Below the pieces are notes generated by a model that was not told the origin of the DNA, did not search any database, and worked only from the letters and a program-made list of their open reading frames with translations. From positions 1-40,285 of the forward strand of contig JAGAMA010000027.1 in NCBI GenBank assembly GCA_017624955.1: a stretch of 40,285 bases of DNA, read 5' to 3'. Positions 11,940-28,049 of this stretch are shown piece after piece. Origin of the DNA: Alistipes sp. (GTDB lineage: Bacteria; Bacteroidota; Bacteroidia; Bacteroidales; Rikenellaceae). A program made the position numbers and the translations under genes. The number at the start of each line of letters is the position of its first letter. The stretch's first letter is position 1.

Positions 11940-12191
11940 ATGGCAAACCATAAGTCTTCGAAGAAGCGCATTCGCCAGACCGCAACGAAGCGCGCACACA
12001 ACCGTCTGTTCCACAAGACGACCCGCAACGCCGTGAAGGCTCTGCGCAACACGACCGACAAGAGCGCCGCTGAGGCACTGCTCCCGAAGGTAACCGCCCT
12101 GCTGGATAAGATTGCTAAGCTCAACATCATCCACAAGAACAAGGCCGGCAACCTGAAGAGCGCCGCTCAGCTCCACGTTAACTCGCTCTAA
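11940..12191 (+). CDS. rpsT: Small ribosomal subunit protein bS20
   Basis: An 83-residue basic helical protein that binds the 5' domain of 16S rRNA early in 30S assembly. MANHKSSKKRIRQTATKRAHN at the start and RNAVKALRN with KLNIIHKNKAGNLKSAAQ are typical S20 segments. Length is normal for the family (about 85). It follows tRNA-Glu and a 264-nt leader, and is ended by a strong terminator. Confidence 0.95.
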   Translation: MANHKSSKKRIRQTATKRAHNRLFHKTTRNAVKALRNTTDKSAAEALLPKVTALLDKIAKLNIIHKNKAGNLKSAAQLHVNSL

Positions 12192-12242: not shown

Positions 12243-12306
12243 GTTGGCTACTGATCAGTGGGATCAGTGGGCTCAGCGGCCTCAGTAGCCTCATACCCAC
12301 CCTTGC

Positions 12307-12429
12307 GCGAAGCCGTATGATGAGGCGAGTGCAAGGCTTGCAAAGAGGCGAAGCGCGCAGCATACTTAGCGTATGTGAGCAGCTTCGCCTCTTTGCGTAA
12401 CGCGGCAATCGCCCGTCAGACGGCTTCGC
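12307..12429. repeat. Structured intergenic element, copy A (unrecognised)
   Basis: A nested fold. P1: GCGAAGCCGT (12307-12316) with ACGGCTTCGC (12420-12429). P2: GGCGA (12324-12328) with TCGCC (12409-12413). Box CAAGGCTTG (12332-12340) faces box GCGTAACGC (12395-12403). P3: GCAAAGAGGCGAAGC (12340-12354) with GCTTCGCCTCTTTGC (12382-12396), 15 bp perfect. Cap: AGCATACT (12359-12366) and GTATGTGAG (12371-12379), in which CATAC pairs with GTATG. The boxes are identical in copy B (27773-27897) while all three outer helices differ. GAGGCGA occurs both in the P2 and P3 left strands (12322-12328, 12345-12351). It ends 5 nt from the stop of the TonB-dependent receptor gene. Confidence 0.8.
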
Positions 12430-12434
12430 CTTCC

Positions 12435-14738
12435 TTAAAAGCGGATTTTGGTACCTATGAACCAACTCCTCGGCATCAACGGACCATAGACATAACCGGA
12501 GTCACGCTCGGCACCGGTATCGAAGTCGTCCTGGTAGGCGTTGAAGAGGTTCTTCATACCACCGTAGAGCTCCATCTCGACATCGCGGAAGAGCTTGAAG
12601 GTGTACTGCAGGCGAAGGTTGGCATCGAAGAAGTGCGGAGTCTCGACAGCCACATCGACATCGGTACCCGAGCCGGCATAGTGTTGCACAAGCATACGAC
12701 CCGTATAGTTACCCGTCAGGTCGATGCTCAGGCGCTTGGCGGGCTTGAGGGTCAGGGTAAAGTAGCCATAGGTATCGGGGGTGCGGAACATGCGTTTCGA
12801 GGGGGCTACGGACTCATCCTCGCTCCAATACTCGGGCTCCTTGTAGCGGCTATCCTGCCAGGTGAAACCTGCCTGCAGCTCTGCCCACTCCGCGAAGGCG
12901 GCACGTCCCTCGATATTGACACCACCGACCGTGGCACCCGAGCCGTTGTAGCGCTCCTGGATCGTAGCGCCATCCGCATCCGAGCCGATCTCACGCAGGG
13001 CAAAGACATCGTTCAGCGTGGTATAGAAACCCTCCACGATGAGGTTCGTGGCCACCTTGCCAAAGCTGTGTGCCCACTCGGCCGAGGCGCTCCACGAGCC
13101 CGAGCGCTCCTCCTTCAGATCCTCGGCCAGGCGAATGCGGGTACGCTCACCGCCCACGATGGCAATGTGCAGGTCCTCATCATAGGCCTGGGGAGCACGG
13201 TAGCCTCCTGCATAGCTCACACGCAGGCTCAGCTCCTCCAAGGGGTTGTAGCGCAGGTTCACGCGGGGCGAGAAGATCACATCATCGACCAGGTTGTGCT
13301 TATCGAGACGACCACCCAGCAGAATCGACCAGCGCTTATTCTTCCACTCGTTCTGGAAGTAACCGCCGTAGAGGTGGACATCCTGGCGCGTATCAATCCC
13401 ATAGCCCGTCGATTGATCGTGCAGGTCGTTGTGGCTGTACTCCGTGCCGATGGTCAGCTCCGAGGGGAGGAACAACAATTTCTGAAACTCATGCACATAC
13501 TGCAGACCGGCTGCCGCCGTCAGGTCGTGCGTACGGCCATAGGCATTGGGGTCCTGGAAAGCTCCGTAGTAGCTCGAACGTGCCGTATTTTGGAACGATG
13601 CATAGGCATTGAGGCGGTTGGCGCGGTCATCCGACGACCAATCGAACGAGAGGCTACCACCGTCAATCGTGTGGTCGGCCTGCTCACAGGTCATCGCCTC
13701 ATGGGGAGGCAGGTCGAGCTGATCACCGCCACGGCGATAATCCTTGATGCGGTGGTACTGGGCCGTGAGGCGCGAGTAGGCACCCGTGCGGAAGTAGCCA
13801 CGCATACCGAGGGCCTCGGAGTTCTGCTCCAGCATCTCGGTAAAGCCATCCCCGTTGTCGTCATAGCCATCCGCCGTGCGGCTCTGGGCAAAGACCGCAA
13901 TGGCCGCCTTGCCGCTATCCGAGACGAGCGATGCGTTGAGTGTCGTCGTATTGTCAAACGAGCTGCTGCAACCGAGCGAGGTGATCGTATGGGCCATCTC
14001 GGCCATGCTGCGCGTAGGCTCCTTCGTGATCACGTTGATCGTACCACCGATGGCCGACGATCCGTAGAGTGCCGAGCCACCACCGCGCAACACCTCCACG
14101 CGCTCGATCATGTTGGCCGGAATCTGCTCCAGGCCATAGACACCCGTCAGGGCCGAGAGCAAGGGGTGCGAATCGACCAGAATCTGCGAATAGCGACCAT
14201 CGAGGCCATTGATACGCACCTGCGGAAAGCCGCAATTCTGGCAGGTATTCTCCACGCGCACACCCGGCTGATAGGATAAGCCACCACCCAGAGAAGCGGT
14301 CGAAACACGGTCGAAAAGCTCCGAATCGAACACACTCACGAGCGAGGGTGCTTCGCGCTTGAGGCGCTCCGTGCGGCTGGCCGACACGACCACCTGATCC
14401 ACGGCTACAACCTCCTCCACGACCTCGAAACGCAGCTCCACCGTACCGCGTCCATGCAGGCAAACCTCCTGGCGCTGTGCGGCATAACCTACGGCACGCA
14501 CCTCGACCGTATAGTCCGCCAGGGGGAGGTTCTTCAGCAGGAAGTGTCCCGTGGCATCGGTCGTCGTGCCGATCGTTGTATGGAGCAGCACCACCGTAGC
14601 GTAGGGGATATGTTCGCCCGTCGCGGCATCCACCACATCACCGAAGATATGGGCATCGGTGGGTTGTTCATGTCGTTGTGCCACGGCCACCGTGAGGGTC
14701 ATCGTGAGCGAAAGCATCAAAAGTAAAAGTCTCTTCAT
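12435..14738 (-). CDS. TonB-dependent outer membrane receptor (metal/heme/siderophore type)
   Basis: 767 residues from ATG 14738; an in-frame ATG further up (14786) lies in the promoter and is rejected. Signal peptide about 1-20 (MKRLLLLMLSLTMTLTVAVA-Q). Residues about 30-110 are a carboxypeptidase-regulatory-like beta domain (IFGDVVDAATGEHIPYATV). The plug follows, with a VDQVVVSASR TonB-box-like strand, QVRINGLDGRYSQILVDSHP, IERVEVLRGGGSALYGSSAIGG and INVITKEP. The rest is a 22-strand barrel ending in the aromatic C-terminus FIGTKIRF. The CQNCGF pair in the plug is typical of FepA/HmuR-like receptors in Bacteroidota. It has no SusD neighbour, so a small ligand (heme, siderophore, corrinoid or metal) is more likely than a glycan; the substrate cannot be read from sequence. 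Confidence 0.88.
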   Translation of the reverse strand: MKRLLLLMLSLTMTLTVAVAQRHEQPTDAHIFGDVVDAATGEHIPYATVVLLHTTIGTTTDATGHFLLKNLPLADYTVEVRAVGYAAQRQEVCLHGRGTVELRFEVVEEVVAVDQVVVSASRTERLKREAPSLVSVFDSELFDRVSTASLGGGLSYQPGVRVENTCQNCGFPQVRINGLDGRYSQILVDSHPLLSALTGVYGLEQIPANMIERVEVLRGGGSALYGSSAIGGTINVITKEPTRSMAEMAHTITSLGCSSSFDNTTTLNASLVSDSGKAAIAVFAQSRTADGYDDNGDGFTEMLEQNSEALGMRGYFRTGAYSRLTAQYHRIKDYRRGGDQLDLPPHEAMTCEQADHTIDGGSLSFDWSSDDRANRLNAYASFQNTARSSYYGAFQDPNAYGRTHDLTAAAGLQYVHEFQKLLFLPSELTIGTEYSHNDLHDQSTGYGIDTRQDVHLYGGYFQNEWKNKRWSILLGGRLDKHNLVDDVIFSPRVNLRYNPLEELSLRVSYAGGYRAPQAYDEDLHIAIVGGERTRIRLAEDLKEERSGSWSASAEWAHSFGKVATNLIVEGFYTTLNDVFALREIGSDADGATIQERYNGSGATVGGVNIEGRAAFAEWAELQAGFTWQDSRYKEPEYWSEDESVAPSKRMFRTPDTYGYFTLTLKPAKRLSIDLTGNYTGRMLVQHYAGSGTDVDVAVETPHFFDANLRLQYTFKLFRDVEMELYGGMKNLFNAYQDDFDTGAERDSGYVYGPLMPRSWFIGTKIRF

Positions 14739-14783
14739 CGTACCTATTCTATATTGTGATTTTTGTTTTCCGTTTTGCGGGAG

Positions 14784-14814
14784 CAAAAGTACAGCTATTC
14801 ATTTGCTCCGACAA
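14784..14814 (-). promoter_or_regulatory. Promoter of the TonB-dependent receptor
   Basis: On the minus strand TTG (14812-14814), 20 nt, TACTTTTG (14784-14791). The start codon is 46 nt downstream. I see no Fur-box-like palindrome. Confidence 0.7.
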
Positions 14815-27543: not shown

Positions 27544-27575
27544 TGCATTGGCGGGCCACCTGCGACCCTCGATAT

Positions 27576-27603
27576 ATTGGGTTCGAATCCCCGACGGGAT
27601 CCG
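27576..27603 (+). other. tRNA T-arm-like fragment upstream of rng
   Basis: TTGGGTTCGAATCCCCGA followed by CGGGATCCG looks like the T arm and acceptor end of a tRNA read on the plus strand. No D arm or anticodon arm precedes it; the sequence before it is the rng start region. ATCCC and GGGAT also pair as a small hairpin in the rng leader. It could be a tRNA relic, for example an attachment-site remnant, or chance. Confidence 0.3.
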
Positions 27604-27717
27604 TATGATAAATATTAGCGACCGTTTTTATTTCATCGAAAGTATCGGTCAAACTTTCAAGGTATATTATCAACGACTCTAAAAAAAACACGGTCGTCGA
27701 TGTGTTAAAATTCATAG

Positions 27718-27745
27718 TGTGAGGCGATTTTCAGGCTTGCGCCTA
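27718..27745. repeat. Partial copy of the structured intergenic element
   Basis: GATTTTCAGGCTTG (27726-27739) repeats GATTTTCAAGGCTTG (27794-27808) of copy B with one base missing, and is preceded by GTGAGGC, like the GTATGTGAG box. AGGCTTGCGCCT forms its own small hairpin. It looks like a broken or nested copy next to copy B. Confidence 0.5.
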
Positions 27746-27772
27746 AAAAAGCCCGCAACTGCTTCATGACCC

Positions 27773-27897
27773 TTTAGAATTCGGTTAAGTGTGGATTTTC
27801 AAGGCTTGTGAGTTTTCGAACACCGGAGCATACTGCCGTATGTGAGGATTTCGAAAACGAGCGTAACGCAGAAAATACCGCTTAAACGGATTCTAAA
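27773..27897. repeat. Structured intergenic element, copy B (unrecognised)
   Basis: Same architecture as 12307-12429 with different helices. P1: TTTAGAATTCGGTTAAG (27773-27789) with CTTAAACGGATTCTAAA (27881-27897), one mismatch and one wobble. P2: ATTTTC (27795-27800) with GAAAAT (27871-27876). Box CAAGGCTTG (27800-27808) faces GCGTAACGC (27861-27869). P3: GTTTTCGAA (27812-27820) with TTCGAAAAC (27850-27858). Cap: AGCATACT (27827-27834), GTATGTGAG (27838-27846). It lies between the COX24-like gene and rng, with the remaining bases of that gap holding a terminator hairpin and the rng leader. Confidence 0.8.
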
Positions 27898-27902
27898 ATA
27901 GG

Positions 27903-27956: not shown

Positions 27957-28049
27957 CTACTTGTTCTTCTTGTGACGATTCTTGCGAAGACGCTTCTTAC
28001 GCTTGTGGGTAGCCATCTTATGACGCTTATGCTTCTTTCCGTTGGGCAT
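27957..28049 (-). CDS. Small basic AURKAIP1/COX24-domain protein
   Basis: Thirty residues, more than half Lys/Arg/His: MPNGKKHKRHKMATHKRKK then RLRKNRHKKNK. Bacteroidota carry this peptide next to HU and rng, annotated as AURKAIP1/COX24-domain protein; the mitochondrial relative (mS38) is a ribosomal protein, so a ribosome-associated role is likely (knowledge of the family, not visible here). It is 27 nt downstream of the HU gene and shares its promoter. Confidence 0.88.
   Translation of the reverse strand: MPNGKKHKRHKMATHKRKKRLRKNRHKKNK

Follow-up and report, generated by a model that had tools for sequence, protein, structure and literature searches.

The window analysed here, a stretch of 40,285 nucleotides of Alistipes sp. 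DNA, carries two copies of an intergenic repeat of about 125 bp, which belongs to a family of repeats that is almost certainly real and covarying. Taking the comparisons of sequence together, the repeat is probably an ERIC-like mobile element that would spread by way of one folded single strand, the fold being tested when the element moves. The combination of free arms with fixed internal loops is informative in that it reveals which positions matter, which of the two strands folds and where the element lands; furthermore, the family provides high-copy hosts beyond the enterobacteria.

Copy A (12304-12433, forward strand) and copy B (27772-27899, forward strand) score 110.7 and 106.0 bits, respectively, with the covariance model R1, the seed alignment of which included both of them, and nothing else in the window exceeds 17.1 bits. 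A sequence-only reading had noted that the segments 12307-12429 and 27773-27897 share the boxes CAAGGCTTG, AGCATACT, GTATGTGAG and GCGTAACGC in identical order, and that the intervening arms are complementary within each copy; both observations are borne out by the sequence. In copy A, all features being on the forward strand, the arms of the outer helix P1, GCGAAGCCGT (12307-12316) and ACGGCTTCGC (12420-12429), enclose the box CAAGGCTTG on the 5' side of an internal loop (12332-12340; kept in the alignment A1), the 5' arm of P3 (12340-12354, from sequence and fold), the apical hairpin GCATAC-loop-GTATGTGAG with its conserved G.T closing pair (12360-12379, from the core pattern and the alignment A2), the 3' arm of P3 (12382-12396, from sequence and fold) and the box GCGTAACGC on the 3' side of the internal loop (12395-12403). 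A gene for a TonB-dependent receptor of 783 residues (12435-14786, reverse strand; open reading frame with Pfam PF00593 and PF07715) has its stop codon at a distance of 1 nt from the 3' end of copy A, and the convergent neighbour on the other side encodes ribosomal protein S20 (11940-12191, forward strand; PF01649).

Copy B is delimited by the P1 arms at 27773-27789 and 27881-27897, read from the sequence, around an apical hairpin at 27828-27846 that was located by the core pattern (all forward strand). Beside it lies the scar of the 5' half of an older element (27705-27743, forward strand), recognized by comparing the window with the locus L264; the counterpart of this scar at the same site of the congener G033 is an intact element, and copy B, with arms unlike those of the scar, sits between the scar and the gene. 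An open reading frame of 30 very basic residues, starting MPNGKKHKRHKM (27957-28049, reverse strand, from the translation), has its 3' end toward copy B, with a terminator-like inverted repeat between them; this stretch recurs next to L264, and its product is perhaps a small ribosome-associated protein. Near the same scar, at 27553-27610, a T-arm-like GGTTCGAATCC motif resembles part of a tRNA; the segment is absent from the tRNA matches of the Rfam scan of the window.

The fold consists, from the outside inward, of helix P1, with a middle mismatch that is often GKAT/AGRC and an inner part that is often TAACAA...TTGTTA (in the free folds of 27 copies), of helix P2, of an internal loop with AAGGC opposite AACGC, of P3, of a 3 by 2 internal loop, and of an apical stem GCATAC/GTATGT closed by the conserved G.T pair. 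In the genus alignment A2 (114 matches from 100 loci, giving 110 distinct rows), covariation reaches 0.608, as against 0.161 (SD 0.006) for shuffled and at most 0.111 for slid alignments, and 91.8% of the cells are paired; the apical G.U (G.T in DNA) is found in 110 of 110 rows. In A3, which comprises 66 matches (63 distinct) from Listeria, Desulfobacter, Nitrosomonas, Rickettsia and Tidjanibacter, taken as the best-scoring or listed matches rather than as a random sample, the corresponding figures are 0.736, 0.195 and at most 0.143, with 90.6% of cells paired. The complementarity of the arms thus extends across copies both within the genus and in five other genera. Because the model aligned A2 and A3 to the structure, independent support comes from unconstrained RNAfold predictions for the 27 copies of the genome itself, which reproduce the fold in outline, as long hairpins with a common apical stem and largely similar internal loops.

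No match at gathering score was obtained with the 4227 Rfam models in the window or in ten loci, and relaxing the cut-off to E up to 5 for seven loci yielded six weak matches short of the gathering score, of which two fall on the copy at L001. The suggestion that a selected fold of an unrecognized family was at hand therefore stands as far as Rfam and the conservation of fold over sequence are concerned; it has to be amended in that ERIC, as detailed below, is a known relative through a shared model. The repeat does not look like an intrinsic terminator: inspection by eye of the 27 copies found no consistent T tract immediately after either arm. Separate terminator-like hairpins adjoin many copies, many of which lie, again by eye, between a stop codon and such a hairpin.

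As for the size of the family, the exact core GCATACT-N(1-10)-GTATGTGAG occurs 27 times in the genome of origin, where the reversed control gives 0, and the model R2 finds 38 matches of at least 35.5 bits there (E up to 1e-4). Further copies in relatives had been suggested as something to look for, and 27 of 36 congeners indeed carry between 1 and 41 exact cores, the remaining 9 having none; in other families of the order, 1 of 24 genomes (G046) has a single core match. Several congeners contain tandem arrays, with a period of mostly 120-125 bp. A different spacing is seen in Listeria, where four copies follow each other at L354:296-1138 about 238 bp apart. With a strict core, at least 115 stretches were found in named genomes, for which a rough estimate of chance expectation is about 11 stretches; among the 80 matches listed, most are from Alistipes or Rikenellaceae and the others are from Nitrosomonas, Desulfobacter, Listeria and Rickettsia. 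R2 matches (E up to 1e-6, stricter filters) are present in 43 of 296 genomes of the phylum. Copies counted with R1 in 21 genomes, which were picked because they already showed a match and in each of which at most 150 candidates were scored, number 106 in a Rickettsia endosymbiont, for which a second count gave 101, 93 in Tidjanibacter, 61 in Listeria newyorkensis, 57 and 47 in Desulfobacter, 39 and 9 in Nitrosomonas, 34 in Desulfobulbus, 31 in G333, 29 in Muribaculaceae and 19 in Cryptobacteroides, with 1-9 in each of the remaining ten. Matches of 34-39 bits (R1) in Pantoea, Erwinia and Winslowiella have a flanking layout in common and, therefore, probably represent a single locus.

There is little sign that phages carry the repeat, given that only 2 stretches of the viral collection have the strict core; in the same collection 9 stretches have the ERIC core, and an ERIC string occurs in 23 phage records. 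In a genome of the same class, three copies lie among the genes that follow an open reading frame of 2062 residues (L084:7400-10500), and the locus L085 of a second genome opens with what resembles, by eye, an Rhs fragment; a link of these copies to polymorphic cassettes is possible. Limited searches of the literature on Alistipes repeats, stop-codon repeats, ERIC and small mobile repeats, and on ERIC-like repeats in Bacteroidetes/Chlorobi, Rickettsia palindromic elements and the letters of the core, gave no description of the family among the titles listed, and none of the papers listed for the core letters concerns bacterial repeats. Rickettsia palindromic elements are in-frame insertions inside genes.

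The repeat is very likely kin to ERIC, since R2, which was built from 38 sequences, one of them from an Enterobacteriaceae metagenome-assembled genome and none of them ERIC, matches ERIC above chance. Scores of 30.5, 29.0 and 26.5 bits are obtained for three distinct ERIC sequences, and since two of these are variants with identical flanks, about two loci are represented; the best other score in the search is 16.1 bits, and the reverse strand of copy A gives 20.6 bits. R1 scores of 23.6 and 18.6 bits, against a chance level of 17.1, would be unconvincing alone, and with default filters R1 reported 0 of 5 ERIC loci. The likeness extends to architecture, ERIC (also IRU or RU-1) being an imperfect palindrome of about 127 bp that forms one long stem-loop, is intergenic and multi-copy, and varies in number among relatives. 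Moreover, the ERIC apical stem GCTTAC..GTAAGT carries the same G.T closing pair, and the alignment covers the whole length of R2 on the corresponding ERIC strand. The differences are that the core letters are GCATAC/GTATGTGAG and that the arms vary among copies of one genome. The terminal TA of ERIC may also be variable in the present family, in which the outer arms vary and empty sites do not fix the ends. In addition, the hosts of ERIC named in the review PMC10969869 are Enterobacteriaceae and Vibrionaceae, whereas the Alistipes-type repeat ranges far outside these families.

Other small repeats offer further comparisons. REP and REPIN sequences are short intergenic palindromes that are thought to move as folded single strands. 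REPs measure 20-40 bp, according to PMC3733652, as compared with about 125 bp for the Alistipes repeat; furthermore, 61 genomes of the genus gave no match to Y1_Tnp. YPAL/RU-2, RU-3, Correia/NEMIS and RUP, which were compared by published description, resemble the repeat in being non-coding with a long stem-loop, and they span about 100-200 bp; the table from which these descriptions come attributes terminal inverted repeats and TA ends to most of the small palindromic repeats that it lists (PMC2229807).

The position of the copies relative to genes, with gene calls from a codon-usage script and element ends set at a fixed offset from the core, is highly regular. In the genome of origin a gene is aimed into the written 3' end at 26 of 27 copies, and its stop codon lies within 15 nt of that end in 22 of 27; on the written 5' side, an inward-facing stop within 15 nt is found in 0 of 27. 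Taking three species together, a gene is so aimed at 61 of 64 copies, which include shared loci and are, hence, not independent; the 3 exceptions represent one orthologous site. Between convergent genes, the nearer gene end is on the written 3' side in 25 of 26 cases (the exception is L262; P 8e-7). For 27 of 66 matches from five other genera, an open reading frame of at least 100 residues has its stop no more than 12 nt away on the written 3' side; the written 5' side gives 1 of 66. Among six E. coli ERIC loci, two are within 5 nt of an inward-facing stop on the expected side, two have an inward-facing gene about 50 nt away (at one of these, another gene ends 15 nt off on the opposite side) and two have none. 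The orientation rule is weaker outside the genus, as is seen from these ERIC loci, two of which clearly follow it, and from Desulfobacter, where 6 of 10 matches show the other gene layout. In Nitrosomonas and Desulfobacter the element's own end may supply the stop codon. Nine of the 27 abutting genes, selected by eye, were scanned with Pfam and are mostly housekeeping, encoding a TonB-dependent receptor, GAPDH, enolase, GMP synthase, FolD, methylmalonyl-CoA mutase, RNase Y, mannitol dehydrogenase and lumazine synthase.

Since the abutting gene runs towards the written 3' end, its template (antisense) strand is the written one; that the fold is specific to this strand can be held with high confidence. 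Mutation of a C-G pair yields T.G when the C changes and C.A when the G changes, and the two products should be about equally frequent unless selection acts on one strand. In the genus rows, excluding the apical helix, G.T outnumbers A.C by 204 to 47, with 21 of the 47 A.C falling in one column pair; in A3, from the five other genera, the counts are 148 and 17. Likewise, G.A mismatches exceed C.T mismatches by 224 to 29 in the genus and by 144 to 9 in the five other genera. For rows longer than 115 nt, a comparison to which the conserved core contributes part of the strand difference, RNA parameters make the written strand the more stable in 100 of 103 rows of A2 and 61 of 62 of A3, and DNA parameters do so in 102 of 103 and 61 of 62, respectively.

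A fold on the antisense strand of the abutting gene disfavours a cis-acting fold of the mRNA. Such an mRNA 3'-end element, in which the complementary strand would fold behind the stop codon and tune decay or termination of the transcript, has in its favour the location after the stop codon and, by eye, often before a terminator hairpin, as well as the precedent of ERIC at gene 3' ends of Yersinia enterocolitica, which is reported to change transcript levels via an RNase E site (PMC10969869). It is nevertheless improbable, considering that, with RNA parameters, the mRNA strand folds less stably than the written one in 161 of 165 copies and that it would carry A.C where the latter has G.T; any effect on the mRNA may be a side effect of residence instead of the cause of the conservation of the fold.

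Rather unlikely, too, is a structured RNA that is selected in place, with the written strand acting as an antisense or 3' regulatory RNA of the neighbour. Strong covariation, tolerance of G.U on one strand, sites that are common to several species and abutting housekeeping genes (e.g. those for GAPDH, enolase, GMP synthase and RNase Y) would all fit a selected RNA. However, at 16 of the 27 copies of the genome of origin both neighbours are oriented opposite to the written strand, which is, therefore, transcribed by neither of them. Copy numbers of 0-41 among congeners, elements that change largely through replacement and the lack of a gathering match in Rfam also count against an RNA kept in place.

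How the elements change was followed at orthologous sites in 38 overlapping pairs that involve four species and 67 elements. In 21 pairs the elements are 78-100% identical, with gene ends that are 82-98% identical; in 17 they are 52-73% identical, with 6-16 positions doubly changed yet paired; among the 21, two pairs with 78% identity and three doubly changed positions are intermediate between the classes. Orthologous elements are, in other words, either much alike or replaced outright, and this two-class pattern is the main reason for suggesting that pairing is tested or imposed before arrival. The compensatory change of helices that the sequence-only reading had proposed is, thus, confirmed as covariation of the arms and corrected as to its origin, which at orthologous sites is mostly replacement of the whole element and not change within the resident copy. 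Single changes in the 21 alike pairs comprise 10 G.T and 5 A.C, a split (P 0.30 against 1:1, 0.18 against the genus pool and 0.014 against the other genera) that is consistent with neutrality and carries little weight, and drift of resident copies is not proven by it.

Scars support the overwriting of residents. The stretches of 400 nt that precede 63 elements contain 18 boxes of the 5' half on the same strand, and downstream of these elements there are 1 on the same and 4 on the opposite strand, the expectation being about 1.7 for each strand on either side. At one locus, G000 has an element of type r, G024 has a scar of p and an element of type q, and G033 has scars of p, q and r together with a full p. 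At L255, L245 and L266 some upstream scars end in a short hairpin of the type GGGTGCT..AGCACCC in place of the apical stem, as if a second small repeat capped the half elements. Three sites without an element in the congener G024 show no clear target duplication, and gain and loss both fit. At one of them, that of L014, the outer arm is nevertheless present in G024, which a self-contained element would leave unexplained, and short hairpins in relatives bear the outer arms of L020, so that insertion and collapse both fit. Outer arms derived from the host by insertion into terminator loops or by copying of flanks, as hinted by L014 and L020, were considered and rejected as a general explanation, because the paralogues L013/L019 and L008/L022 have common outer arms.

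Half-element scars and collapsed hairpins would also fit template switching during replication, which is known to correct imperfect palindromes and might keep ordinary inverted repeats symmetrical with no recognition of a fold. That the family could be explained in this way is the least probable of the possibilities considered, as such correction should erase the asymmetric internal loops and the G.T pair that persists in 110 of 110 rows, and would be expected to erase the strand-specific excess of G.T over A.C as well.

In the favoured reading, that of an ERIC-like mobile element spreading through a folded strand, an incoming copy would be accepted only on condition that its folded strand is paired over its length and displays the boxes; any arm sequence would then do, provided that the arms pair. 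The folded strand, which replication, DNA uptake or an RNA copy might supply, would be recognized by a predicted enzyme; once resident in the 3' untranslated part of a gene, the copy would drift under little constraint, and later arrivals would overwrite it at the same address. The folded form may, by a narrow balance of likelihood, be single-stranded DNA, which is modestly preferred over RNA, because 16 of 27 copies have no neighbour that transcribes the written strand and because integron sites work by bottom-strand hairpins.

The parallel with integrons extends further. The attC site is a bottom-strand hairpin behind a stop codon, in which structure is kept over sequence and AAC/GTT is invariant in the R box, and which the integron integrase recognizes. 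The repeat shares with it a bottom-strand hairpin directly after a stop codon, variable arms with fixed unpaired positions, structure conserved over sequence and an inner P1 that is often TAACAA...TTGTTA, from which one could envisage a gene and its hairpin travelling jointly as a cassette. Yet this is very improbable: the nine scanned abutting genes are mostly housekeeping and the neighbours are not cassette-like, different elements are found at the same gene end in different species, and the element alone occurs both singly and in tandem. Moreover, there is no invariant GTT/AAC, since columns 15-17 with 132, 131 and 129, where attC has it, show three or four standard pair types. A broader proposal, which we put forward tentatively and regard as unlikely, is that a bacteria-wide class of transposase-free mobile hairpins exists, in which one DNA strand would be known by internal loops and pairing alone, host single-strand machinery would deliver it to gene 3' ends in a fixed orientation, newcomers would overwrite residents behind stop codons, and ERIC would be the enterobacterial branch.

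Among Y1_Tnp, DDE_3 and RVT_1, no mobilizing enzyme for the repeat was found in 61 congeners. A Y1 transposase of the REP/RAYT type is rejected, with Y1_Tnp matching 0 of 61 genomes of the genus and 5 of 14 control genomes, as is an IS630-type enzyme, DDE_3 giving three weak matches below and none above the cut-off in the same 61 genomes. A reverse transcriptase was also set aside: RVT_1 is present in 20 of the 61 genomes and fits poorly with copy number, being absent from the four richest genomes (that of origin with 27 exact cores, G001 with 37, G005 with 41 and G033 with 28) and present in 5 of the 9 congeners with zero copies. Among the counted congeners, the median is 3 copies for the 14 that have RVT_1 and 5 for the 22 that lack it, a trend that is loose, as G028, with 17 copies, has two reverse transcriptase genes.
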